Source: a virus
Reading direction: 5' to 3' (one strand)
DNA: 59,588 bases
Virus record (IMG/VR): IMGVR_UViG_3300022841_000019
Span: 1-59,588 of that record
In this document: positions 8,946 to 51,809 of the stretch, piece after piece
How the letters are laid out: every line of letters begins with the position of its first letter
Position numbering within the stretch: the first letter of the stretch is position 1
Program-made: the position numbers and the translations under genes
The notes under the pieces: model-generated
Told to the model about the DNA's origin: nothing
The model's database searches: none
The model's input: the letters and a program-made list of their open reading frames with translations, nothing else

Positions 8946-8963
8946 TAATTACAAGTGTGATAG

Positions 8964-8990
8964 TTACCCTCGTTAAATTTACGGGGGTAA
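8964..8990 (+). terminator. Rho-independent-type terminator after the capsid gene
   Basis: TTACCCTCGT pairs with ACGGGGGTAA (one G-U) around the 7-nt loop TAAATTT, giving a 10-bp GC-containing stem. A T-rich stretch (TTGTTACTCTTATTATTTTAT) follows on the plus strand. The hairpin lies 19 bases after the capsid stop and 43 before the next ATG, so it would cap or partly attenuate the capsid transcript. Confidence 0.75.
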
Positions 8991-9033
8991 TTGTTACTCT
9001 TATTATTTTATAAATTTTTAATCTTATTATATC

Positions 9034-42124: not shown

Positions 42125-42373
42125 TTATAAACCTTTGTTAATAGCATTTATAAGTTTTCTAACGTGCTTTGTCTTATAAAACCTTATTGGTTCTTGTGTG
42201 TTAAATATTTCTACAAAACATTTCTTTTCATCGCTATCACTAGAAATTAAACAAAATTCTTCATGCTCTTTATAAAAATCATAAATAAAATAAATAAATT
42301 CTTTGTCCCCTGATTCCTCTGCTGAAACATATTCTTTTTTAAATCCTAATTTCTCTAAATCTTTAAAATTCAT
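42125..42373 (-). CDS. Small unknown protein
   Basis: This 82-residue acidic protein (MNFKDLEKLGFKKEYVSAEE at the start) has a beta-strand and helix pattern ending HVRKLINAINKGL. It overlaps the end of the HTH-protein gene by ATGA, so it is coupled to it and may work with it. The function is unknown. Confidence 0.65.
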   Translation of the reverse strand: MNFKDLEKLGFKKEYVSAEESGDKEFIYFIYDFYKEHEEFCLISSDSDEKKCFVEIFNTQEPIRFYKTKHVRKLINAINKGL

Positions 42374-42990
42374 AATTGTTGGTTTAATAGTTCTTTCTCT
42401 TTTTTTAATTCATTACTCATGTTTCTATGTATTGTCCTTGTTGAACATTCTAAAGATTTAGCTAATCCGCTAATAGTTATCTTAGATCCTAAGTCGTGAG
42501 TATCAAGCATGCATTGATAAATATCATCTTCATGTATCTTTTTACCACGACCTATAATTTGACCTACTATTTTTAATTTCTCTTCAGTGGTTAAACCGGT
42601 GAACTCATTGAAAATGATTTTTCTTAGCTTGTTTTTAGGTGGCTTTTCTAAGTCACACATGCTAACCTCATATATTATGTTGTTAAGTAGTTGCTCTGGT
42701 ATTTCAAAAGTTACAAAACCATTTGTTTTCTCAGCTATATGAGCTACTACTTGCTTAAACTGATCTTGATCAAGGCTTGGGTTTAAATACCATAATACTA
42801 ACATGTGCCATTTTAAAGACTTATATGTAGTAATCTTAGCTCTTGATCTAAACAATTCATAACATTCATTAGTTCCTTCTTCGTAATAATTACCCCATTC
42901 AAAAGTGCTGGTTGGTTTATCACTAATAGGACCTCTACGGTATATAATTCTTCGTCTATTCAATATTTCTAGATTTCTAATGTGTGACAT
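42370..42990 (-). CDS. Helix-turn-helix protein, start codon inside a repeated hairpin element
   Basis: This 206-residue protein has a C-terminal helix-turn-helix (KITISGLAKSLECSTRTIHR, about residues 168-187), so DNA binding is likely. The N-terminal part is Arg/Tyr-rich, then helical. The ATG at 42990 lies within the right arm of a ~56-nt hairpin element that occurs two more times in the window, preceded at short distance by AAGGGG. This layout suggests autoregulation of its own translation or transcription. A replication-initiator or repressor role is possible but unproven. Confidence 0.7.
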   Translation of the reverse strand: MSHIRNLEILNRRRIIYRRGPISDKPTSTFEWGNYYEEGTNECYELFRSRAKITTYKSLKWHMLVLWYLNPSLDQDQFKQVVAHIAEKTNGFVTFEIPEQLLNNIIYEVSMCDLEKPPKNKLRKIIFNEFTGLTTEEKLKIVGQIIGRGKKIHEDDIYQCMLDTHDLGSKITISGLAKSLECSTRTIHRNMSNELKKEKELLNQQL

Positions 42991-43034
42991 AAGCCCCTTA
43001 CTAATTAGTCTAATACCCTAATGTCACAGTTTTC
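42981..43034 (-). repeat. Hairpin repeat element, copy C, overlapping the start of 42370-42990
   Basis: On the minus strand: arm AAAACTGTGACATTAG, a 24-nt middle ending AGTAAGGGG, then arm CTTATGTCACAC. The ATG of the HTH gene is inside the right arm and AAGGGG sits three bases before it. Left arm is within the end of a 41-codon ORF. Two other copies lie at 50577-50633 and 51418-51474 on the plus strand. Confidence 0.85.
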
Positions 43035-43130
43035 AAAAGCCTCATGTGTTTCATAAAAAAATTTATTTTCAATAAATTCTTCGTAGGCTTGGTCGTGCAT
43101 TGTTTCTAATAATTCTTTAGTCCGTCCCAT
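43005..43130 (-). CDS. Small unknown protein upstream of the HTH gene
   Basis: A 41-codon ORF (MGRTKELLETMHDQAYEEFI at the start) has an amphipathic helix and an acidic tail. Its last codons form the left arm of hairpin copy C, so its translation would unfold that element before the HTH gene. This could make it a leader for the HTH protein. The function is inferred only from layout. Confidence 0.5.
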   Translation of the reverse strand: MGRTKELLETMHDQAYEEFIENKFFYETHEAFENCDIRVLD

Positions 43131-43137
43131 ATACAGG

Positions 43138-43422
43138 CTATTTTAACCTGTTGTTAAGTTTTTTTATCTCAGCATCAATAATAATTGCTTTATTGTAGTT
43201 TTCATCTTCTAAAGCTTTCGCTAACTCAATTTTAAGCTCTTTAATTTTTAATAGATTTTTTTCGTTAACATCTACCTTAGTTAAAATAGCTGTGCTATCA
43301 GATACGTAATTCTGCATATCAGCCTGGAACTCAATATCCCATTCTTTTTGTTTTGTTTCAATTACATCTAAAACCTTTTCTGCAACTAAAGCTGCGAATT
43401 TATTCATTTCATTTTCAGTCAT
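43138..43422 (-). CDS. Coiled-coil protein, unknown function
   Basis: This 94-residue, charged, all-helical protein (NEKNLLKIKELKIELAKALE in the middle) has regular heptads. It lacks Cys and Pro, in keeping with a dimeric coiled coil. It sits between the KTSC-type gene and the 41-codon ORF. The function is unknown. Confidence 0.65.
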   Translation of the reverse strand: MTENEMNKFAALVAEKVLDVIETKQKEWDIEFQADMQNYVSDSTAILTKVDVNEKNLLKIKELKIELAKALEDENYNKAIIIDAEIKKLNNRLK

Positions 43423-43444
43423 ATATTGTTTATTTATACAGTTA

Positions 43445-43693
43445 TTATCCGTTAGTCAACGTATTTTGTTTGAAACCTGTAACAAATTCAAACTTCTTGA
43501 AGATATAGTTATTAAGGAATCTACCCTTAGAACTAGCCTCAAACAAACCTCTCCAGTAAAAACGCGGCACACCTAGGTATGTATATACGCTTTTGTTGTT
43601 AAAACATACTGTCATTTCTTTTCTACTTACGTCATATTCAGCGCTGTGTATAGCACTAGAATTAACTAAAACTATTTCAATCTTGTTTTTCAT
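43445..43693 (-). CDS. KTSC-domain protein
   Basis: This 82-residue protein shows the KTSC pattern: VNSSAIHSAEYDV, then MTVCFNNKSVYTYLGVP, then FEASSKGRFLNNYI. These small domains are often next to RNA- or stress-related genes and may bind nucleic acid. In phages the role is not defined. Length is normal for the stand-alone form. Confidence 0.8.
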   Translation of the reverse strand: MKNKIEIVLVNSSAIHSAEYDVSRKEMTVCFNNKSVYTYLGVPRFYWRGLFEASSKGRFLNNYIFKKFEFVTGFKQNTLTNG

Positions 43694-43723
43694 TTTATTA
43701 TACTTGTTTTGTTTATATATTAA

Positions 43724-43921
43724 TTATTCTTCCTCTTCTTCTGACAATTCAAATTGTCTTAATATTATTTTAATAGCTTGTTCTCTAGTTATTGGATCAA
43801 TTCCTTCTATTTTAGAGTCTTTATCACTATAGACGCCGTGTGAATCATTCCACTCTAAGACATCTATTAGCTCTAATCTATCCATTTGAATTACTTCTTC
43901 TATTGTTATATTATGATACAT
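43724..43921 (-). CDS. Small acidic unknown protein
   Basis: This 65-residue acidic protein (ends FELSEEEEE) is largely helical. Acidic microproteins of this shape in phages sometimes mimic DNA and block host nucleic-acid enzymes; there is no direct evidence for that here. Confidence 0.55.
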   Translation of the reverse strand: MYHNITIEEVIQMDRLELIDVLEWNDSHGVYSDKDSKIEGIDPITREQAIKIILRQFELSEEEEE

Positions 43922-43972
43922 GATGTTATTTGTATTTAGTGAAATATTAATCCTACTTTTTTAATAAATTGT

Positions 43973-44074
43973 TTATATTCTATCATTTATGTTATATTTA
44001 TTTAATTGTTCGTTCTCTACTACTTGAAATGTATTAATGTTATGTACAAATATTGTTTGTTCTTGCTCCTTCAT
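43973..44074 (-). CDS. Microprotein, unknown
   Basis: A 33-codon ORF (MKEQEQTIFVHNINTFQVVE at the start) is Glu/Asn-rich and lies between 44087 and 43921. The gap otherwise holds only AT-rich DNA. Coding is plausible, not certain. Confidence 0.35.
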   Translation of the reverse strand: MKEQEQTIFVHNINTFQVVENEQLNKYNINDRI

Positions 44075-44086
44075 TATCTTATTATT

Positions 44087-44677
44087 TTAATTATTGTTTC
44101 TTAATATGTTCCATATTATTGCTTGATACTGATATCCTTTTAAACCTAATTTGTTTGCTTTGTTTATTGTTAGTTCCTTAATTTGTTGGTATGCTAATTT
44201 ACCTATTGAAGCACTATTAATTTTTATAGACTTATTCATGCACGCCCTTAAATGCCATATATCAATCGTTAAATGTGCATCACTTAATAAAGCTATATTA
44301 TATACAAAATTATATGTTTTAAGACTCTTACTTGTTATATGTATATTGTTGTTAACAATATTAAATGCCTTAAATTTATTTGTGTGAAAAGTGCAAACTT
44401 TTATATCTTCCGCAGGTACATTGTTTTTTATTGCTTCAAAAACTTTGTAAGCATCCAATATGTTTTGTTGCCATAAATTACGTGGTGATAAAGCAGAAAT
44501 GACACTTGCAGCTATAAAAGTATTGCTATCATATTTTGTTGCAATATCTTTGCAGATATCGTTAGCATCTTTGTACCAAACTAAACCGCTTTTAAAATCT
44601 TCTTCATTAGCTAAATTAAAATAATAGTCTAAATTTTTACTAATTTTTGATAGTTGGTATCTTGTTAATTTTTTCAT
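44087..44677 (-). CDS. Conserved-type phage protein, unknown function
   Basis: This 196-residue helical protein carries FKSGLVWYKDANDICKDIA, then VISALSPRNLWQQNILDA. This WY-x-D-A-N plus SALSPRNxW-x-x-N layout recurs in phage proteins of unknown role with a helical, nucleic-acid-enzyme-like look. Base composition is more A-rich than the neighbours (many AAT/AAC Asn codons), which may mark a different origin. No catalytic residues can be named. Confidence 0.7.
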   Translation of the reverse strand: MKKLTRYQLSKISKNLDYYFNLANEEDFKSGLVWYKDANDICKDIATKYDSNTFIAASVISALSPRNLWQQNILDAYKVFEAIKNNVPAEDIKVCTFHTNKFKAFNIVNNNIHITSKSLKTYNFVYNIALLSDAHLTIDIWHLRACMNKSIKINSASIGKLAYQQIKELTINKANKLGLKGYQYQAIIWNILRNNN

Positions 44678-44690
44678 TGGTTTAGTTATT

Positions 44691-45047
44691 TTATAATATC
44701 ATTACTTTATTGGTTAATGTATCAAAAATTGCTTTTTGTTTGTTTGTTGTTGCTGCTATTAAAGCAAAACTTAAATTGTCAATGTGCAAATTAGCGTCAA
44801 TAAAATATATATTTGTTTCTGTATCCATCCATCCGCCAATGCTACAAAATTGCTTCGATTCAATTGTTTTATTAATATTATTCCTTAAATCCGTATCATT
44901 TGAAGGGTTAACGCCCTTGTATAAGTTTTTAATACTTACTATGTATCTACTTTTTGAACTATTTAATTTAATGGTGAAATTCTGTTTATTAATACAGTTA
45001 TTTAAAATTAACTGAATTTTGTCTAAATTGTTATTTAATCGTGCCAT
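44691..45047 (-). CDS. Unknown protein
   Basis: This 118-residue, Asn- and Ile-rich protein (MARLNNNLDKIQLILNNCIN at the start) ends NKVMIL. Like the gene just downstream, it uses many AAT/AAC codons. It follows tRNA-Gln and the structured RNA in transcript order. The function is unknown. Confidence 0.6.
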   Translation of the reverse strand: MARLNNNLDKIQLILNNCINKQNFTIKLNSSKSRYIVSIKNLYKGVNPSNDTDLRNNINKTIESKQFCSIGGWMDTETNIYFIDANLHIDNLSFALIAATTNKQKAIFDTLTNKVMIL

Positions 45048-45085
45048 CTTGTTTATGTTTTATAATTTTATTGTTTTAACTCTAG

Positions 45086-45157
45086 TTTTCCCACAAGGAA
45101 TCGAACCTCGAATGTCTGCATCAAAAGCAGATGTGTTACCAATTACACCATGGGAAA
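45086..45157 (-). tRNA. tRNA-Gln, anticodon TTG
   Basis: A 72-nt cloverleaf reads on the minus strand. The acceptor TTTCCCA pairs with TGGGAAA, with discriminator A. The D-arm GTGT...ACAC encloses AATTGGTA. The anticodon arm is TCTGC-TTTTGAT-GCAGA with anticodon TTG, and the T-arm is CGAGG-TTCGATT-CCTTG. No CCA is encoded. It decodes CAA, the common Gln codon in this AT-rich phage, whose portal and ejection proteins are Gln-rich. Confidence 0.93.
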
Positions 45158-45490
45158 TAATAACCGCGGGCTGTATGAGACGACAAAGTTATTGTTGAAT
45201 AACTCCCAAGTAGTTGCCAAAACTACGATTTACTCTCTCAATAGAGCGTCTTATTAGATAGCGGCTGCATTGTTCTTTTGTATACCGTCGTAATGCTTGA
45301 CAACGGATGTAAGGCTCCCACTTTCCTTACTTGTTAGTCTAAAGTTTTTCTCTTTCCAGAAGCAGGTGACTAAATTATACTTTAACCTGAGTGGTTTTAA
45401 ATGCTAATCCCGTAGATTAACCGGGCAACTTAAGGTATTGCCTTTGATGGAATTACATCCTTACCAGGTCCTCCACCCTTTGAGCGGGGA
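45158..45490 (-). ncRNA. Highly structured non-coding region beside tRNA-Gln
   Basis: No ORF spans these 333 bases, yet they form many stems. Examples are 45188-45203, 45210-45226 and 45235-45246 (three hairpins closed by 45177-45182 with 45247-45252), then 45285-45306 (CCGTCG/CAACGG), 45309-45330 (GTAAGG/CCTTAC), 45334-45339 with 45368-45373 (TTAGTC/GACTAA), 45384-45396, 45409-45425 and 45446-45459. It lies between a coding gene and tRNA-Gln in one minus-strand transcript. I do not match it to tmRNA, RNase P RNA or a group I intron. It is most likely a stable phage RNA. Confidence 0.65.
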
Positions 45491-45760
45491 CTAGTCTAAA
45501 AGCACGTAATAAGCATCTACATTGGCTCTCCTGAACCAATTTAAACCTTTATGAAAATTATTAATTAGTTCTTTTGTTACTGACTTAGGTTGGAGTTCCA
45601 TAACTAACTGTGCCCCTATTATAAAGTCGTACATAGATAATTCTGCTCCAGTAAGATCGTAACTAGCTCCGCTGAACGGGTTAGTTACAGTTTCACCAGA
45701 CGTGTATAGCACGCCATCAAACCATTTAGGTAATAATTGTTCTTTAGTATTATTGCTCAT
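45491..45760 (-). CDS. Conserved-type phage protein, unknown function
   Basis: From the ATG at 45760 (MSNNTKEQLLPKWFDGVLYT) the 89-residue protein has LPKWFDGVLYTSGETVTNPF, then LTGAELSMYDFIIGAQLV, and ends AYYVLLD. I recall this sequence type in marine phages, always without a known role. The start overlaps the upstream gene by 11 bases. Confidence 0.75.
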   Translation of the reverse strand: MSNNTKEQLLPKWFDGVLYTSGETVTNPFSGASYDLTGAELSMYDFIIGAQLVMELQPKSVTKELINNFHKGLNWFRRANVDAYYVLLD

Positions 45761-46193
45761 TATATCCTTCATTTAATAGTTCTTCTGTTATACTTTCTAA
45801 TGCTGTGTCATAAATACTACCATATAATGAATGCATTGCCTCCATTACATAATCTTCTTCTAAATCGCCTATGAAGATTTTACCACCCCCGCTTGAGTTT
45901 TTAATTCCCTCACATAAACAACCAGCTAAATCGCGATCATAATAGTGAACGTCCTCATTTATACTTATTTTGTCAGGGTTATAGGTTGCAATAAATACTT
46001 CGTAGCCATCTTGGGTACTCTCTGTATATATATAGTAATCCAAATTCCTTTCCCAGTCATCTGTTAATTCTACATTGTGATGATCTAAAACTAAATCCAT
46101 TAGTCTTTCGTCGTCATTGCACACGTCTTCACCAAATCCACTAGCCTTTAGTCTTTCGTTAATTAATTCGATTGTAATTAGTTTATTTGTCAT
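45750..46193 (-). CDS. Unknown acidic protein
   Basis: This 147-residue, strongly acidic protein has Asp/Glu clusters throughout and a GGGKIFIGDLEEDYVMEAM segment. It is upstream of and overlaps the next gene. No fold was recognised. Confidence 0.6.
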   Translation of the reverse strand: MTNKLITIELINERLKASGFGEDVCNDDERLMDLVLDHHNVELTDDWERNLDYYIYTESTQDGYEVFIATYNPDKISINEDVHYYDRDLAGCLCEGIKNSSGGGKIFIGDLEEDYVMEAMHSLYGSIYDTALESITEELLNEGYNEQ

Positions 46194-46202
46194 GGTTGTT
46201 TA

Positions 46203-46589
46203 TTATACGGTTAAAGATTCTTTGTTTATTTCTTTCATGCCTCTATTTTTTATTAGATAATTTTTTAGATATAGTAATCTATCTATCTCTTGCGGAATCA
46301 ATACTCTAATAGTTCCTACGGATGATCGAACCAATAACCTACCTAAGTTACGATACATGTAATCTGTCATACGTTGACGAGTTAAGTTTAACTGATAACA
46401 AGTGTGTTTATCATATGTACGTACTATACCTGATTTATATACAGCGAAAAACTCATCTCCGTATTTAAACGCTATAGTTCCGTTTTTTAATTGCCTATCA
46501 CTGGTTACATTGTTTACAGCATAGCTTGTTGTTAACTCTTTAACGAACACAGCTACTTGTAGTTCTGCGTATGATTTATAATTTCTCAT
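46203..46589 (-). CDS. Unknown protein
   Basis: This 128-residue protein has a mixed strand/helix pattern, e.g. GDEFFAVYKSGIVRTYDKHT and a helical LTRQRMTDYMYRNLGRLLVR. It overlaps the upstream gene by 14 bases. The basic helices could bind nucleic acid. The function is unknown. Confidence 0.6.
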   Translation of the reverse strand: MRNYKSYAELQVAVFVKELTTSYAVNNVTSDRQLKNGTIAFKYGDEFFAVYKSGIVRTYDKHTCYQLNLTRQRMTDYMYRNLGRLLVRSSVGTIRVLIPQEIDRLLYLKNYLIKNRGMKEINKESLTV

Positions 46590-46794
46590 CTGTTTCTATT
46601 AATTTAGTTATGTAATTCCATATTTTTATTTCTTTCTTTGTGCCTTCTATAAGTAGTACCAACTCTCTTCTAGTTATACAACCGTAAAAACCTGCTAATA
46701 AATCTTGCTTATATGTGGACAACTCAATGTCTAACATTGTTAGCCGCGCAAACGCTTTATCGCTTGCTCTTTCTACAATCTCTTGCCTTGTCAT
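46576..46794 (-). CDS. Small helical protein
   Basis: I place the start at 46794 (MTRQEIVERASDKAFARL), because a promoter-like GATAAT box covers the earlier in-frame ATG at 46833. The 72-residue protein is helical with alternating charges. The function is unknown. Confidence 0.6.
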   Translation of the reverse strand: MTRQEIVERASDKAFARLTMLDIELSTYKQDLLAGFYGCITRRELVLLIEGTKKEIKIWNYITKLIETDEKL

Positions 46795-46820
46795 ACTGTT
46801 TAATTCGTTTGTTATATCAT

Positions 46821-46850
46821 TATTATCTACCATAGTTCGTATTTTATTTG
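46821..46850 (-). promoter_or_regulatory. Promoter-like site upstream of 46576-46794
   Basis: Minus strand: CAAATAAAATACGA, 9 nt (ACTATGGTA), GATAATA. It fits the family spacing exactly and sits 27 bases before the chosen ATG, which supports the shorter start for that gene. Confidence 0.68.
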
Positions 46851-46863
46851 TTTCTATTTATCT

Positions 46864-46926
46864 CTATTGCTTTTTAAGCCCCTTCTTAAACTCAGGCTTC
46901 AACCTACTCCATAGTGTTTTACTCAT
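46864..46926 (-). CDS. Microprotein with LKPEF motif
   Basis: A 20-codon ORF (MSKTLWSRLKPEFKKGLKKQ) begins two bases after the stop of the upstream gene. The same RLKPEF core starts the 68-residue protein at 47465-47671, so the two may share a binding mode or ancestry. It is a basic amphipathic peptide; coding is plausible. Confidence 0.4.
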   Translation of the reverse strand: MSKTLWSRLKPEFKKGLKKQ

Positions 46927-46928
46927 AA

Positions 46929-47237
46929 CTATTTTATTAATTTAACTAATATATTCCTTGCTTTATCAGTACTCTTTTTATCTACACCACCAATATGGAA
47001 ACTATATTCTCTGTCTAGATCAAGAGGTCTGTATTCTTTCCAATCATACACTGTAAACTGTAGGTCTTTACCTGCTTGAAAACTAAAATCAAAGTTAGTT
47101 TTATCTTCACCATCATTATAGTCATTATAAGATAGGTTGTTTTTCTTAGCTAGGTCTAGTAAACTATTAGGTGTTGTATCTATAGTTGTACCATGAAAGC
47201 TACTCTGTTCCCATTTAATTACTTCTGTTAACTTCAT
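46929..47237 (-). CDS. Unknown protein
   Basis: This 102-residue protein (MKLTEVIKWEQSSFHGTTID at the start) has a beta-rich core FDFSFQAGKDLQFTVYDWKEY and a final helix. It follows the tRNA-like RNA region in transcript order. The function is unknown. Confidence 0.6.
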   Translation of the reverse strand: MKLTEVIKWEQSSFHGTTIDTTPNSLLDLAKKNNLSYNDYNDGEDKTNFDFSFQAGKDLQFTVYDWKEYRPLDLDREYSFHIGGVDKKSTDKARNILVKLIK

Positions 47238-47250
47238 TATTTATATTTTA

Positions 47251-47464
47251 GTAACTAGTGAGGAATCGAACCTCATACCCGTCGGTAGTCTGCAAGACTT
47301 CAAGCTCGTGAAAACGTTTACTTAATTCAAGTTGCAACCATACCTAGTTGTCGGTTTTCGAGTTAAAGAGCCATCTACCGTAAAACTCTTGATTATATTA
47401 AAGGATCTTCGTCAGCTTAACAATTTAAAATACCATTCCCGTACTGAGCCTTTCACCGTAATCT
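47251..47464 (-). ncRNA. Structured RNA region ending in a tRNA-like T-arm
   Basis: The minus strand holds a perfect T-arm (TGAGG-TTCGATT-CCTCA, 47259-47275) followed by CTAGTT, which pairs with AACTAG 93 bases upstream as an acceptor-like stem. Between them are TACC-GACG-GGTA (like a class II variable arm), AGTCT/AGACT and ACTT/AAGT hairpins. A standard D-arm and anticodon arm cannot be drawn, so it is not called a functional tRNA. The remaining 110 bases, up to the stop of the upstream gene, are also non-coding with pairing segments. Confidence 0.5.
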
Positions 47465-47671
47465 TTATATAGTTATAAACAAGTCTCCAAAATATCTAAC
47501 CTCGCAAGCTGAGCATATGTCGCTGGCTGTGCCAAATCTTACGTCAGTAAAGTAGTTGTTATCTGCAAGTGTTTCCATGCACTCCTCATAAGTTCTTGGG
47601 AATTTTAATTTAAAGTCTTCCATTTTTTGGATAAACTCTGGCTTTAATCTTTGTAAAAGTGATAATTGCAT
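47465..47671 (-). CDS. Small unknown protein
   Basis: I choose the ATG at 47671 (MQLSLLQRLKPEF), since the earlier one at 47692 falls in the promoter-like box. The 68-residue protein has a basic amphipathic start and an acidic, Cys-containing C-terminal half (ASDICSACEVRYFGD). It shares RLKPEF with the microprotein at 46864-46926. The function is unknown. Confidence 0.6.
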   Translation of the reverse strand: MQLSLLQRLKPEFIQKMEDFKLKFPRTYEECMETLADNNYFTDVRFGTASDICSACEVRYFGDLFITI

Positions 47672-47690
47672 AATGTTAATTTTAATATTC

Positions 47691-47725
47691 ATATATATTA
47701 TCGATCAGTGATCGTGTTTCGTTTG
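47691..47725 (-). promoter_or_regulatory. Promoter-like site upstream of 47465-47671
   Basis: Minus strand: CAAACGAAACACGA, 9 nt (TCACTGATC), GATAATATATAT. It is nearly identical over 39 bases to the site at 48372-48406, with one difference, suggesting recent duplication or strong selection on the whole element. Confidence 0.75.
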
Positions 47726-47746
47726 AAAAACGCTTGTAATGTGCGC

Positions 47747-47956
47747 TTAATACGGCTCGTTATTGTGATCCCACAGTCTATTATTGGCAAAACCCTTGCC
47801 TTTAGTACCTGATCCTTTAGATTTAACTAATACTTTGTTGTACTCTTTAATACTTAGACCCCTAGCGTAACCGTGTATAGCAACTAACGCTAAGTGGTTC
47901 ATAGATCTTTCTTTTTTATTATTCTCAAGAATTGCTAGTACCTTGTTTTTATCCAT
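47747..47956 (-). CDS. Small basic protein
   Basis: This 69-residue Lys- and Asn-rich protein (MDKNKVLAILENNKKERSMN at the start) ends in a Gly/Lys-rich GSGTKGKGFANNRLWDHNN. It may bind nucleic acid given its charge. The function is unknown. Confidence 0.55.
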   Translation of the reverse strand: MDKNKVLAILENNKKERSMNHLALVAIHGYARGLSIKEYNKVLVKSKGSGTKGKGFANNRLWDHNNEPY

Positions 47957-47965
47957 GTCTATTAG

Positions 47966-48151
47966 TTATTTAATGCTTTTTAAAAGTAGCTTTAACGCTT
48001 TTTTAAAGATCTTTTTATTTAATTCATCGTACTCAACGCCGTGTAGACGTACGCTAGCGGTTTGCCACTCTATATTATCAATTATGAAGTCCTTGGTTAA
48101 TATAGCTGTGTTCTCTGCTATTTCTTTTATTTTTTTATTTGACAAACTCAT
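47966..48151 (-). CDS. Small unknown protein
   Basis: This 61-residue helical protein (MSLSNKKIKEIAENTAILTK at the start) ends KALKLLLKSIK. It is four bases from the gene upstream. The opposite-strand ORF in this place looks unnatural (Phe/Ser-rich), which supports the minus frame. The function is unknown. Confidence 0.55.
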   Translation of the reverse strand: MSLSNKKIKEIAENTAILTKDFIIDNIEWQTASVRLHGVEYDELNKKIFKKALKLLLKSIK

Positions 48152-48155
48152 AGGT

Positions 48156-48350
48156 TTAAACGGGTAAGTAAGTTAGACCTTTGTAGTTAAACCAGCTGTT
48201 AATACCGTCTTTGTCATCTATTTTATCAAATATAAAGCCGAAGTTTAAAGGTAATGATCCTACTTCATAACCTTTATATTTAACAGCGACAGATTCATTA
48301 TCTTTTTTTATTTGCAAAGTGGTTTTACTTGTAAATTTAATTTGTTTCAT
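48156..48350 (-). CDS. Small beta-rich unknown protein
   Basis: From the ATG at 48350 (MKQIKFTSKTTLQIKKDNES) the 64-residue protein alternates strand residues (VAVKYKGYEVGSLPL). The longer frame would start inside the promoter-like site, so it is rejected. The function is unknown. Confidence 0.6.
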   Translation of the reverse strand: MKQIKFTSKTTLQIKKDNESVAVKYKGYEVGSLPLNFGFIFDKIDDKDGINSWFNYKGLTYLPV

Positions 48351-48371
48351 GGTATATTTATTTATCGTTAC

Positions 48372-48406
48372 ATATATATTATCGATCAGTGATCGTATTT
48401 CGTTTG
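48372..48406 (-). promoter_or_regulatory. Promoter-like site upstream of 48156-48350
   Basis: Minus strand: CAAACGAAATACGA, 9 nt (TCACTGATC), GATAATATATAT, ending about 20 bases before the ATG. It is the twin of the site at 47691-47725. Confidence 0.75.
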
Positions 48407-48413
48407 AAAACAA

Positions 48414-48707
48414 CTAATCTAACTCCCAGTTTTCTTTGTTTAGGAACGATTCTACGTTCTTAGACCTATTCAAACGTTCAGCAGCATAGGTTTTATACTC
48501 GTCAAAATAATAGTCTATTAGATCTTGAGTTTCTTGCTCGCTGTAAGCTACAAACTGCTTTACGTGGTAGTCGTGTAAAAGATCTTTATCGTTACAAGTG
48601 TACTCTGTGATCGTGGATTCAGTCTGCTTTTCCAAGTTGTACTGAACGCGGCTACTAATTGTGTATAGCACGCCGCGATAGAAATTCTTTTTACTTATTG
48701 TACTCAT
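48414..48707 (-). CDS. Unknown protein
   Basis: This 97-residue acidic protein has Tyr-rich helices (DLIDYYFDEYKTYAAERL). It overlaps the upstream gene by 17 bases, and a promoter-like site lies just beyond its end. The function is unknown. Confidence 0.6.
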   Translation of the reverse strand: MSTISKKNFYRGVLYTISSRVQYNLEKQTESTITEYTCNDKDLLHDYHVKQFVAYSEQETQDLIDYYFDEYKTYAAERLNRSKNVESFLNKENWELD

Positions 48708-49263
48708 TATAGATCAATTTTTTAATAATACCATCTACGACTGAAACTGTAGTACCACTAACTTCTGTATTATCTTTTAGAATAAATCTCGCACGAGGTA
48801 ATTTGCTAAGACCTAAGGAAACTAGTATTTCATTTAAGCACCAATCTCGTTGTATTATCTGGAAATCACTTGCAGTAGTTTTCTTTTCACACTTAGCAAG
48901 CTCTATCTTTAAAAAGTTTATTCTATCTTCTACACTATAGCTAGACAGCTCGTTTTCAATAAATCCAATGATTGTTTTTTCCACTAAACAATAAACACCA
49001 CTCTGTAGATCAGAGTAATTGTTTTTAAATAACTTACTGTATAAATTTCTAAACTCTGAGTAGTTTGTATCATCACCACCTATTGACCATTGCATATCGC
49101 ACTCTAAGTCTTCTATGGTCCTAACTTCTTTATCACCGATTATTTGAGTGTGAATATTTCCCGTGGCTTCAACTTGCGCTGTTATAAGTTTGTTCACTTC
49201 TACTACTACATCGTAGTTAAATCTTATCCAATCTGGTTTCTTTGTAATTGCTTTAATTTTCAT
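48691..49263 (-). CDS. Unknown protein
   Basis: This 190-residue protein (MKIKAITKKPDWIRFNYDVV at the start) has a beta-rich first half and a helical middle with an Asp-Asp-Thr-Asn stretch. A repeated promoter-like site sits 28 bases upstream of its ATG. No family was recognised. Confidence 0.6.
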   Translation of the reverse strand: MKIKAITKKPDWIRFNYDVVVEVNKLITAQVEATGNIHTQIIGDKEVRTIEDLECDMQWSIGGDDTNYSEFRNLYSKLFKNNYSDLQSGVYCLVEKTIIGFIENELSSYSVEDRINFLKIELAKCEKKTTASDFQIIQRDWCLNEILVSLGLSKLPRARFILKDNTEVSGTTVSVVDGIIKKLIYNEYNK

Positions 49264-49290
49264 CTTTTGTTTTATTGTATTAAATTCAGT

Positions 49291-49322
49291 TATATTATCT
49301 ATTAGTGATCGTATTTTTATTG
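49291..49322 (-). promoter_or_regulatory. Promoter-like site upstream of 48691-49263
   Basis: Minus strand: CAATAAAAATACGA, 9 nt (TCACTAATA), GATAATATA, ending 28 bases before the ATG at 49263. It matches the family spacing exactly. Confidence 0.75.
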
Positions 49323-49323
49323 T

Positions 49324-49518
49324 TTAGAATAAAGAACTGTAAACACACTCGCTCACAAAATCTAAGTGATCTGAGTTTATCTCATCGAGCATTTCCTCTG
49401 ACATATCTTCACCATTATACTCTGCCGACTCAATAAAAGCATCGACAAAATCTGGGTAGTCACTTGCGTCTATTCCGTCGACACTTACGTTGGTTACTAA
49501 TTTAAAATCTATAATCAT
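49324..49518 (-). CDS. Small acidic protein
   Basis: This 64-residue, strongly acidic protein (MIIDFKLVTNVSVDGIDASD at the start) overlaps the upstream gene by one base (TAATG). It is rich in Asp/Glu, with a Cys near the end. The function is unknown. Confidence 0.6.
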   Translation of the reverse strand: MIIDFKLVTNVSVDGIDASDYPDFVDAFIESAEYNGEDMSEEMLDEINSDHLDFVSECVYSSLF

Positions 49519-49838
49519 TACTCTATTTCGTTTAAGTCTTCTTTTAATCTACTTATAAAGGAATCTTCTCCATCGTCTCCTGATAAATACCAATCTATTC
49601 TGTTGACATATGCTTCCGCTTGCTTTAAGATCTTGACTGCTTTTTTAAATTCTTCTTGAATATCCTTTCTGTAAGTATAATTATATCTTTCTTCTGGATG
49701 TTCTTCAAGGTATTCATCACAAAAGGAATAAAGCTCTTTTTTAGATATCTCTTCACCTTGGCTGTCTAACGTTGTTTGGATGTTATCCGCTATTTCTCCA
49801 ATTCTAAACTGGTGGTATTCAAACATTCCTCCGCTCAT
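49518..49838 (-). CDS. Acidic helical protein
   Basis: This 106-residue acidic protein (MSGGMFEYHQFRIGEIADNI at the start) has a YSFCDEYLEEHPEERYNYTY segment. A second ATG 12 bases in could also serve. It is downstream of one of the promoter-like sites. The function is unknown. Confidence 0.6.
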   Translation of the reverse strand: MSGGMFEYHQFRIGEIADNIQTTLDSQGEEISKKELYSFCDEYLEEHPEERYNYTYRKDIQEEFKKAVKILKQAEAYVNRIDWYLSGDDGEDSFISRLKEDLNEIE

Positions 49839-49872
49839 TTTTTCTTGTTGTTTTTATATGTATTATTTACAT

Positions 49873-49905
49873 CGATATTATCGATTACTTTACGTATTTC
49901 TACTG
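49873..49905 (-). promoter_or_regulatory. Promoter-like site upstream of 49518-49838
   Basis: Minus strand: AGTAGAAATACGT, 9 nt (AAAGTAATC), GATAATATCG, about 35 bases before the ATG. One base differs in the TACGA box; the 9-nt spacer is kept. Confidence 0.6.
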
Positions 49906-49916
49906 TAGACAGTATA

Positions 49917-50012
49917 CTATCTCTTTATTGAGTGTATAATTCTTGACCATAACTTTAATTCTTCATTGACTTCCTTTAGTGTAAGGATTAAATTGTGCGT
50001 AAATTTTCTCAT
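49917..50012 (-). CDS. Microprotein, unknown
   Basis: A 31-codon ORF (MRKFTHNLILTLKEVNEELK at the start) is helical and basic at both ends. It fills part of the gap between 49838 and 50092. It contains TCAAGAATTATACAC, which recurs in non-coding DNA near 50505, so coding is uncertain. Confidence 0.3.
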   Translation of the reverse strand: MRKFTHNLILTLKEVNEELKLWSRIIHSIKR

Positions 50013-50057
50013 TTTTAGTATGTTTTAAAAGGTGTATAATTATTTGTTTGTAGAAAA

Positions 50058-50089
50058 GGTTAGAGAGATATAAAACTACCTCTCTGACC
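50058..50089 (-). terminator. Hairpin terminator after 50092-50328
   Basis: On the minus strand GGTCAGAGAG pairs with CTCTCTAACC (one G-U), loop of 12, followed by TTTTC. It starts three bases after the gene's stop and would end its transcript. Confidence 0.65.
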
Positions 50090-50091
50090 AT

Positions 50092-50328
50092 CTAAGACTG
50101 CTCTACGATCAAGAACGGTCTTACTACTGTTGGTATTGAAGCACTTGAAGTGTAACTTTTATACTTTTCCCAGCAAGGCATTTTTTCTAGTTTCTCTTGC
50201 ATTGCAGCGAAGGCGTCGTCATGGTTGTACTTCGATACTTTTCCATTGCTGAAGGTAACTTCTATTATTTGGTTTTTACCGATTAGTGATTTTCTAATGA
50301 AAAATCTTTTTGAACTTAGTGTACTCAT
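50092..50328 (-). CDS. Small paralogous protein, copy 1
   Basis: This 78-residue protein has the pattern SKRFFIRKSLIGKNQIIEV, then VSKYNHDDA, then CWEKYKSYTSSASIP. The same protein, diverged, is encoded at 50801-51031. It is basic with a strand-rich front and a Trp-containing helix. Flanking promoter and terminator make it a single-gene unit. The function is unknown. Confidence 0.65.
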   Translation of the reverse strand: MSTLSSKRFFIRKSLIGKNQIIEVTFSNGKVSKYNHDDAFAAMQEKLEKMPCWEKYKSYTSSASIPTVVRPFLIVEQS

Positions 50329-50368
50329 AATTTATTTATTTTAAGGTTTATATTTATTTATTTACAAC

Positions 50369-50400
50369 TATATTATCTGTTAGTGGTCGTATTTAATTTG
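50369..50400 (-). promoter_or_regulatory. Promoter-like site upstream of 50092-50328
   Basis: Minus strand: CAAATTAAATACGA, 9 nt (CCACTAACA), GATAATATA, about 40 bases before the ATG. It fits the family exactly. Confidence 0.72.
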
Positions 50401-50454
50401 TAACTTCTTATAATTCTCATAAACTCTTTGTTTTTGTTATTAGTTTTTGTTACA

Positions 50455-50488
50455 TATATATTATCTGACGATGTTCGTATAATTTTTG
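50455..50488 (-). promoter_or_regulatory. Promoter-like site with no clear gene behind it
   Basis: Minus strand: CAAAAATTATACGA, 9 nt (ACATCGTCA), GATAATATATA. The only ORF right after it is 15 codons (ATG at 50420, MRIIRSYKLNTTTNR), ending just before the next promoter-like site. It may make a short RNA or add to expression of 50092-50328. Confidence 0.6.
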
Positions 50489-50576
50489 TACAAGTGCTAT
50501 ACACAGTGTATAATTCTTGAGCAACTCGTAGGGCGGAGTATACTCTTCCGATCTTGTTGCAGAACCAGGCTGTTGT
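50489..50576. other. Non-coding stretch upstream of hairpin copy A
   Basis: This part of a ~300-base stretch (50329-50631) has no gene. It holds a TGCTATACACAGTGTATA near-inverted repeat at about 50495 and a CG-richer GGGCGGAGTATAC segment, then runs into hairpin copy A. I see no ORF with a start codon in either strand. Confidence 0.45.
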
Positions 50577-50633
50577 AAAAGTGTGACACTAGGTAGTTAA
50601 GTATAACTAGTAAGGGGCTAATGTCACAGTTTT
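50577..50633 (+). repeat. Hairpin repeat element, copy A
   Basis: Plus strand: arm AAAAGTGTGACACTAG, a 25-nt middle with inner stem AGTTA/TAACT and ending AGTAAGGGG, then arm CTAATGTCACAGTTTT. It lies just past the stop of 50632-50772 on the minus strand, in opposite orientation to that gene. The AAGGGG-CTAATGTCACA part mimics the start region of the HTH gene but leads only to MSQF and a stop. Confidence 0.85.
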
Positions 50634-50772
50634 AAGATGAAGATCCGAAGGCTTCTATAGCTCTTTCGATTGTCAATTGATCTTCAGTTTTAAAGACCTT
50701 CTCTTCTGATTGCCAGAAAGCAGACTCATATGTCGATCCATCTGATCTTGTTATTGTTTTTATTATATACAT
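50632..50772 (-). CDS. Small unknown protein
   Basis: A 46-codon ORF (MYIIKTITRSDGSTYESAFW at the start) has strand then helix and ends AIEAFGSSS. It lies between the two paralogous genes and its stop abuts hairpin copy A. Protein-like composition supports coding. The function is unknown. Confidence 0.6.
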   Translation of the reverse strand: MYIIKTITRSDGSTYESAFWQSEEKVFKTEDQLTIERAIEAFGSSS

Positions 50773-50800
50773 ATTATTTAGTTTAGATTATTTGAAAGTA

Positions 50801-51031
50801 TTAGTCTGTGATTAACACAGATCTAACACTCACTGGAATACTTGCGCTTGAAGTATACGATTTGTATTTCTCCCAACAATTCATACTGTTCAATTTATCT
50901 TTCATAACATCATATGCCTGGTCGTGATTATACTTCGATACATTACCATTTTTGAATGTAACTTCTATGATCTGATTTTGACCGATTAATGACTTTCTTA
51001 CTAAGAATCTTTTTGATTTTAAAATTTCCAT
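50801..51031 (-). CDS. Small paralogous protein, copy 2
   Basis: This 76-residue protein shares SLIG-x-NQIIEVTF, VSKYNHD and CWEKYKSYTSSASIP with 50092-50328, so the two arose by duplication and kept the same core. It is the first minus-strand gene after the divergence region and has its own promoter-like site. The function is unknown; duplication and early position suggest selection for dosage or two targets. Confidence 0.65.
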   Translation of the reverse strand: MEILKSKRFLVRKSLIGQNQIIEVTFKNGNVSKYNHDQAYDVMKDKLNSMNCWEKYKSYTSSASIPVSVRSVLITD

Positions 51032-51070
51032 TTGACTTGATTTTATTATTATTATTATTATTTATATTCA

Positions 51071-51105
51071 ACTATATTATCTGATAGATGTTGTAGATTA
51101 TTTGA
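51071..51105 (-). promoter_or_regulatory. Promoter-like site upstream of 50801-51031
   Basis: Minus strand: CAAATAATCTACAA, 9 nt (CATCTATCA), GATAATATA, about 40 bases before the ATG. The GATAAT box and spacing are kept; TACGA is TACAA. Confidence 0.6.
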
Positions 51106-51136
51106 GGTTAAAATTTTGATTATTATTATTTTAATT

Positions 51137-51170
51137 ACATAGATATTATCTGAGACCAGCAGTAGAAAGC
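51137..51170 (-). promoter_or_regulatory. Weak member of the promoter-like family
   Basis: Minus strand: TTTCTACTG, 9 nt (CTGGTCTCA), GATAATATCT. Only the GATAATAT box and spacer fit well. It is the outermost site, facing the minus-strand block from the divergence region. Confidence 0.4.
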
Positions 51171-51184
51171 TTGTATGCTATACA

Positions 51185-51417
51185 TTTTCCTACGGAAAAA
51201 GAAATGCGATCGCGATAGTAGTCTCGTAATAAAAACGTGAAATACATACCGAAAACGATAACAAAACGTGAAAAACCATACGATTACCGAAAAAACACAG
51301 GGGGACCCGGCAAATTGAAACGTATTTGGGTTTTGAAGCAGGAGCTCTACGGTAGAGGGCAACCCCCTAGTTCTAGACATTTAACAAAAATTTTTTAGAA
51401 AAAAATTACACCAGCAT
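51185..51417. other. Non-coding divergence region, candidate origin or control region
   Basis: This is part of a ~500-base gap between the divergent blocks (51032-51536). It is richer in G and C than its surroundings and holds AAAACGTGAAA twice, GCGATCGCGAT, an AGGGGG/CCCCCT long-range pair (about 51300 and 51365), an inner CTCTA-CGG-TAGAG hairpin, and an AT-rich AATTTTTTAG/AAAAAAATT inverted repeat near 51390. The minus ORF that spans it (51135-51380) has an unnatural Phe/Arg/Ser-rich composition and is not believed. Confidence 0.5.
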
Positions 51418-51474
51418 AAAACTGTGACATTAGGCTATTAGATATATATAGTAAGGGGCTATTGTCACACTGTT
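51418..51474 (+). repeat. Hairpin repeat element, copy B, in the divergence region
   Basis: Plus strand: arm AAAACTGTGACATTAG, a 25-nt middle with AT-rich inner pairing and ending AGTAAGGGG, then arm CTATTGTCACACTGTT. It lies between the two divergent gene blocks, 60 bases before the first plus-strand gene. It carries ATT where copy C has its ATG, so it cannot start a protein. Confidence 0.85.
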
Positions 51475-51536
51475 GGTCACTTGTAAGAGTTTTTATTAAC
51501 ATGTAAGTATTAAAGGTATAATAATACATGATTAAA

Positions 51537-51809
51537 ATGGGTAAACAGAAATTAAGTCCTGTCGCTGCTAAAGCGAAAGCAGTTAGAGATTTAGCTTACG
51601 CTAACACAGATAATAGAAAAGCTAAGAGAGCGGATAGTCAGATGAAGAGGAGAGAAGCTGTGAAGAGTAAAGGGGTTGCTTTTTTAATAGGTAAGGATTA
51701 TGATCACAATACAGGTAAATTTGTGTCATCGTCACACAATAGAGGTGGTACGCAAAGCAAGAATAAGAAAGATGGTACAAAAGCGGAGTATAAGCAAAGC
51801 AAAAAATAA
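51537..51809 (+). CDS. Small basic protein, unknown function
   Basis: From the ATG at 51537 (MGKQKLSPVAAKAKAVRDLA) the 90-residue protein is very basic, with KADSQMKRREA-like and DYDHNTGKFVSSSHNRGG stretches. It is the first plus-strand gene after the divergence region; a TATAAT-like sequence sits about 20 bases upstream. Small basic proteins of this kind often bind phage DNA or sit in the virion. The function is unknown. Confidence 0.65.
   Translation: MGKQKLSPVAAKAKAVRDLAYANTDNRKAKRADSQMKRREAVKSKGVAFLIGKDYDHNTGKFVSSSHNRGGTQSKNKKDGTKAEYKQSKK

Follow-up and report, generated by a model that had tools for sequence, protein, structure and literature searches.

A conserved palindromic element in uncultured Bacteroidota-type podophages, a probable operator with a helix-turn-helix protein as its candidate ligand

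The 59,588-base IMG/VR record IMGVR_UViG_3300022841_000019, analysed here over its whole length and referred to as the window, contains three copies (A, B and C) of an imperfect palindrome of 46-48 bp with the pattern TGTGACA-N31-34-TGTCACA. By terminase identity the phage is related to the uncultured podophage MW202828 (64%) and to Flavobacterium Elemovirus (45%), with Cellulophaga, Maribacter and Tenacibaculum phages as more distant relatives. Its gene set is of the virulent type, and its genes include those for RNR, thymidylate synthase, a primase-helicase, GroEL/ES and a crAss-type muzzle protein. A 3068-aa protein encoded at 19566-28772 matches nothing in Pfam or PHROGs at threshold. Presumed early genes run leftward from ~51 kb and presumed late genes rightward, the two names being assigned from gene content.

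All three copies reported in a preliminary description of this DNA are present with exact arms: copy A at 42983-43028 on the minus strand (covariance-model E 4.5e-12), copy B at 50582-50628 on the plus strand (E 1.1e-12) and copy C at 51423-51469, also plus (E 1.0e-13). A search for the arm pattern gives three hits in the record and none in a backward-read control, and the oriented block AGTAAGGGG has the orientation described earlier. Copy B is flanked by early leftward genes and precedes an early promoter-like repeat, and copy C precedes the late operon, which runs rightward; both fall in the divergence region, in the window as in its relatives, where copy B had already been placed. The earlier assignment of a helix-turn-helix (HTH) start codon to the element was right, but the copy was not: the ATG is found not in copy C but in the minus-strand copy at 42981-43034, that is, in the right arm of copy A (position 42990). 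Otherwise the layout was described correctly. In the copies at 50582 and 51423 an ATG or TTG stands at the matching codon, and an in-frame stop comes after it. A 41-aa ORF (43005-43130, minus) ends inside copy A.

The HTH gene (42370-42990, minus) encodes a protein of 206 aa, and upstream of it is a 94-aa gene (43138-43422, minus) with which it probably shares a transcript. An early promoter-like repeat (43429-43474, minus) lies 5' of the 94-aa gene. It belongs to a family of ~46-nt repeats, CAAAnnnAATACG-N10-GATAATAT, with 12 copies between 37822 and 51175, all on the minus strand just 5' of leftward genes, which resembles a family of phage early promoters. The member nearest copy B, GATAATATATATG (50445-50490, minus), is ~116 nt away. 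Between them, the sequence AGATCGGAAGAG at ~50545-50556 (minus) was considered as an Illumina-adapter artefact and rejected; it is shared with L278, and almost fully with L259, and is therefore natural. To the right of copy C, the first late-operon gene (51528-51809, plus) encodes a small basic protein of 93 aa (phrog_6437, E 0.00036), and related loci have a similar first gene. An Rfam search of the whole window at gathering thresholds returned only a tRNA and no family at the element.

The 206-aa protein reaches threshold for no family in Pfam, PHROGs or NCBIfam, and no relative of it turned up in a tblastn search of the entire phage collection. With E values up to 1 allowed, Pfam HTH_11 matches 61 of 62 homologues (best 2.9e-6), and the match of the window's own protein is under the curated cut-off. 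The predicted fold has a pLDDT of 90, and model residues 149-204 align to winged-HTH and sigma-4 chains with Z of 5-6. A whole-fold search of the PDB gave no significant match, and among viral models one was matched, A0A516MIB4 (E 9e-11). The weak but consistent profile matches and the confident model together assign the protein a predicted C-terminal HTH at about residues 149-204.

To place the element among relatives, we combined pattern scans with protein-led retrieval. An IMG/VR pattern scan yielded 61 stretches, far more than chance would give, of which ~47 are clear relatives of the element, and the combined set comprises 104 non-redundant elements. They occur in uncultured Bacteroidota-type podophages, usually with two to four copies per genome, and the covariance model likewise found the element in all 40 chosen records, usually in two to four places each. 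In seven named related phage records the same model gave no convincing element (best E 0.66), and neither element nor HTH protein is present in the terminase-related phage isolates tested. Conservation in related phages, proposed as a check in the preliminary description, is thus borne out by more than 100 relatives.

The 206-aa protein is itself conserved. An HTH homologue is encoded by 15/15 element-bearing contigs of at least 54 kb; the element-bearing contigs that lack one are shorter and possibly fragments. Where contigs picked by their element have the HTH gene, an arm overlaps the gene start in 19 of 19 cases, and in all eight genome contigs found through the protein alone (53-66% identical) the element is at or next to the start. 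Among 80 viral homologues, the start codon of L109-L111 and L123 lies 17 nt beyond an element that has been kept, and L092, L095 and L097 lack the element at the expected start.

Placement follows a pattern across the genomes compared. Copies of type A are at the start of the regulator gene and point in the early direction, opposite to types B and C; type C is 5' of the late operon and points in the late direction, and type B stands beside the early promoter-like repeats (GATAATAT). A fourth type, absent from the window, follows the major capsid gene and its terminator and precedes the next structural gene. It is forward in L145, L208 and L220 and reversed in L154, L160, L162 and L179, and in either orientation is 27-29 nt from the same ATG. 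The window has a terminator between the capsid gene and the next gene at 8946-9033.

A promoter-like motif, TGTAAGTATATAA, lies downstream of copy-C-type elements, ahead of the first late gene. Exact copies are present in 7 of 30 downstream flanks of these elements, compared with 0.01 expected from dinucleotide shuffles, and in none of the left flanks. Distances from the element cluster at 22-25, 32 and 54-56 nt and are phased at 10.5 bp (Rayleigh p ~0.002, n=15, allowing up to 3 mismatches and uncorrected for relatedness), as expected of an activator acting from one face of duplex DNA. In the window, the putative late core promoter motif TGTAAGTATTAAA at 51502-51514 (plus), 32 nt after copy C, is the only zero-mismatch match to TGTAAGTATWWAA. 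TGTAAGTATATAA is a candidate late promoter.

Within the element, both arms match TGTGACAWTAGSCnNTTA position by position over ~19 bp in the set of 104, leaving an AT-rich centre of 8-10 bp between the two half-sites. The loop side is conserved equally with the arms. Compensatory changes in the stem amounted to one two-sided cell of 840, fewer than in any of 500 shuffles. No arm pair shows meaningful compensation, and the check for covarying pairs proposed earlier gave a negative outcome. As RNA, the three window copies fold better than shuffled sequences (z -2.0, -3.5 and -2.6), which is expected of any palindrome. The half-sites, the lack of compensatory changes and the occurrence of both orientations at one locus favor a duplex operator over an RNA switch.

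The most probable reading of these observations is that the element is a duplex operator bound by the 206-aa HTH protein, serving autoregulation and late-gene activation. Co-occurrence, the C-terminal HTH, placement, phased TGTAAGTATATAA, half-site symmetry and the use of both orientations all support it, as does the joint absence of protein and element from the related phages tested. The preliminary description had left the choice between operator and RNA switch open: the operator half finds good support in co-occurrence, placement and promoter spacing, with binding by the HTH protein itself still a prediction, whereas the RNA half is not supported, given the lack of compensation, the conserved loop, the two orientations at one locus and the displaced starts of L109-L111 and L123.

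We envisage that the protein, made early from the leftward early operon, would bind the two ~19-bp inverted half-sites as a dimer or tetramer. On copy C it would recruit or position RNA polymerase at TGTAAGTATATAA, two or more helical turns downstream; on copy B it would act on the adjacent early promoters, probably shutting them down; and on copy A, which covers the start codon of its gene, it would limit its own synthesis. Both the identity of the binder and the sign of each effect are proposed from the arrangement just described. Four observations weaken this model. The 45-48 bp range of lengths would shift the helical phase between half-sites, copy A is over a start codon ~400 bp past the nearest early promoter, and the spacing from copy B to the early promoter-like repeats is not clearly phased. 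The fourth is a lack of complementarity that a simple operator of two half-sites does not predict.

This last feature concerns the two positions flanking the TGTGACA core, where the arms avoid complementarity and often carry the same letter. Watson-Crick pairs are found there in 10/104 and 11/104 elements, against 32 and 41 expected (P < 5e-5). At the inner position the signal comes from the B and C copies and from the contrast between classes, because the class A start codon fixes one side. In L015 and L058 the core and flanks are otherwise nearly identical but both outer positions differ together, G/G in one and C/C in the other; a single inversion was rejected as the source, since the orientation of the flanks relative to the core is unchanged. 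The lack of pairing might reflect half-sites that differ from each other, or a perfect palindrome being disfavored. It is also conceivable, though unlikely, that the site is recognized as an extruded or single-stranded hairpin, as a DNA cruciform or RNA, in a structure-based operator that needs mismatches flanking the 7-bp core; this would explain both the kept non-complementarity and the joint change at both positions.

Equally doubtful is an RNA translational switch in which the start codon of the HTH gene is masked by an mRNA hairpin, the RNA being bound by the protein or by some other factor. The ATG and the ribosome-site-like block AAGGGG are within the hairpin, the element hairpins are stable, and many core changes leave G-U pairs, yet the arms have no compensatory changes to speak of, and other copies are 5' of promoters or reversed with an A-C mismatch on the transcribed strand. 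The freedom of orientation, together with the retention of the element where the start codon has moved outside it, argues against a required mRNA hairpin. One clade (L090, L137, L068 and relatives) has a second hairpin upstream of copy A, GGGG-CTGT/ACAG-CCC, which is mutually exclusive with the first and shows five two-sided changes. Suggestive as it is, we did not accept this GGGG/CCCC hairpin: it overlaps the coding sequence of the preceding ORF and is confounded by that frame, and a control with the partner slid by +1 equals it in two-sided changes and has the same covariation score.

Quite improbable is that the copies are replication-origin sites whose initiator also represses its own gene, as in iteron plasmids. 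The operators of self-regulated initiators are commonly related to origin repeats, and the copies are grouped in the divergence region, at the sign change of the GC skew; however, the skew tracks gene direction, a further copy is found between capsid genes, the late-promoter motif is phased relative to the element, and the 206-aa protein matches no replication-initiator family. Slighter still is the chance that a phage RNA polymerase or sigma-like factor uses the element itself as its promoter: the element is promoter-sized, with an AT-rich centre and a position at gene starts, and the HTH is similar to both sigma region 4 and winged repressors, but a separate conserved -10-like motif follows 22-56 nt downstream and both orientations precede the same gene. 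A small mobile or invertible element, conserved by spread and not by function, is very hard to credit, for although the capsid-gene locus may carry it in either orientation or lack it, the element keeps fixed positions, goes closely with a single gene and is under strong sequence constraint even where the proteins have diverged to 53% identity.

With the duplex operator as the preferred reading, a large uncultured Bacteroidota phage group now has a candidate regulator, operator and late promoter, and the proposed early/late switch is directly testable on named sites with one protein. In the one library searched, the literature held nothing on TGTGACA operators in phages, on Pachyviridae promoters or on transcription control in this phage group. 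The more than 100 natural variants also offer material for studying selected non-complementarity within a palindrome.

Known phage systems offer several points of comparison. Operators of the lambda type are imperfect palindromes whose two halves are unequal; they come as triplets, and the HTH protein that binds them regulates its own gene. The element shares the imperfect palindrome and unequal halves, and by our proposal the HTH protein and autoregulation, but it belongs to a phage with a virulent-type gene set, has far longer half-sites and forms no triplets. In phi29, protein p4 has sites between the early A2b/A2c and late A3 promoters (PMC10899789), and copies B and C are similarly located between divergent early and late units, where a phage protein would switch transcription from early to late; unlike p4, the 206-aa protein has no sequence family match, and its proposed site is 2 x ~19 bp within 46-48 bp, with a further copy placed over the start codon of the regulator itself. 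The late activators P2 Ogr and P4 delta act at TGT-N12-ACA sites of late promoters, and Ogr is a zinc-finger protein with the motif CX2CX22CX4C (PMC3931495). A dyad site 5' of late promoters, in several copies per genome, is common to both, but TGTGACA-N31-34-TGTCACA differs from the Ogr site in length and sequence, and the 206-aa protein lacks the Ogr zinc finger CX2CX22CX4C. The element system would work like phi29 p4 or P2 Ogr, but the features tested make it a member of neither.
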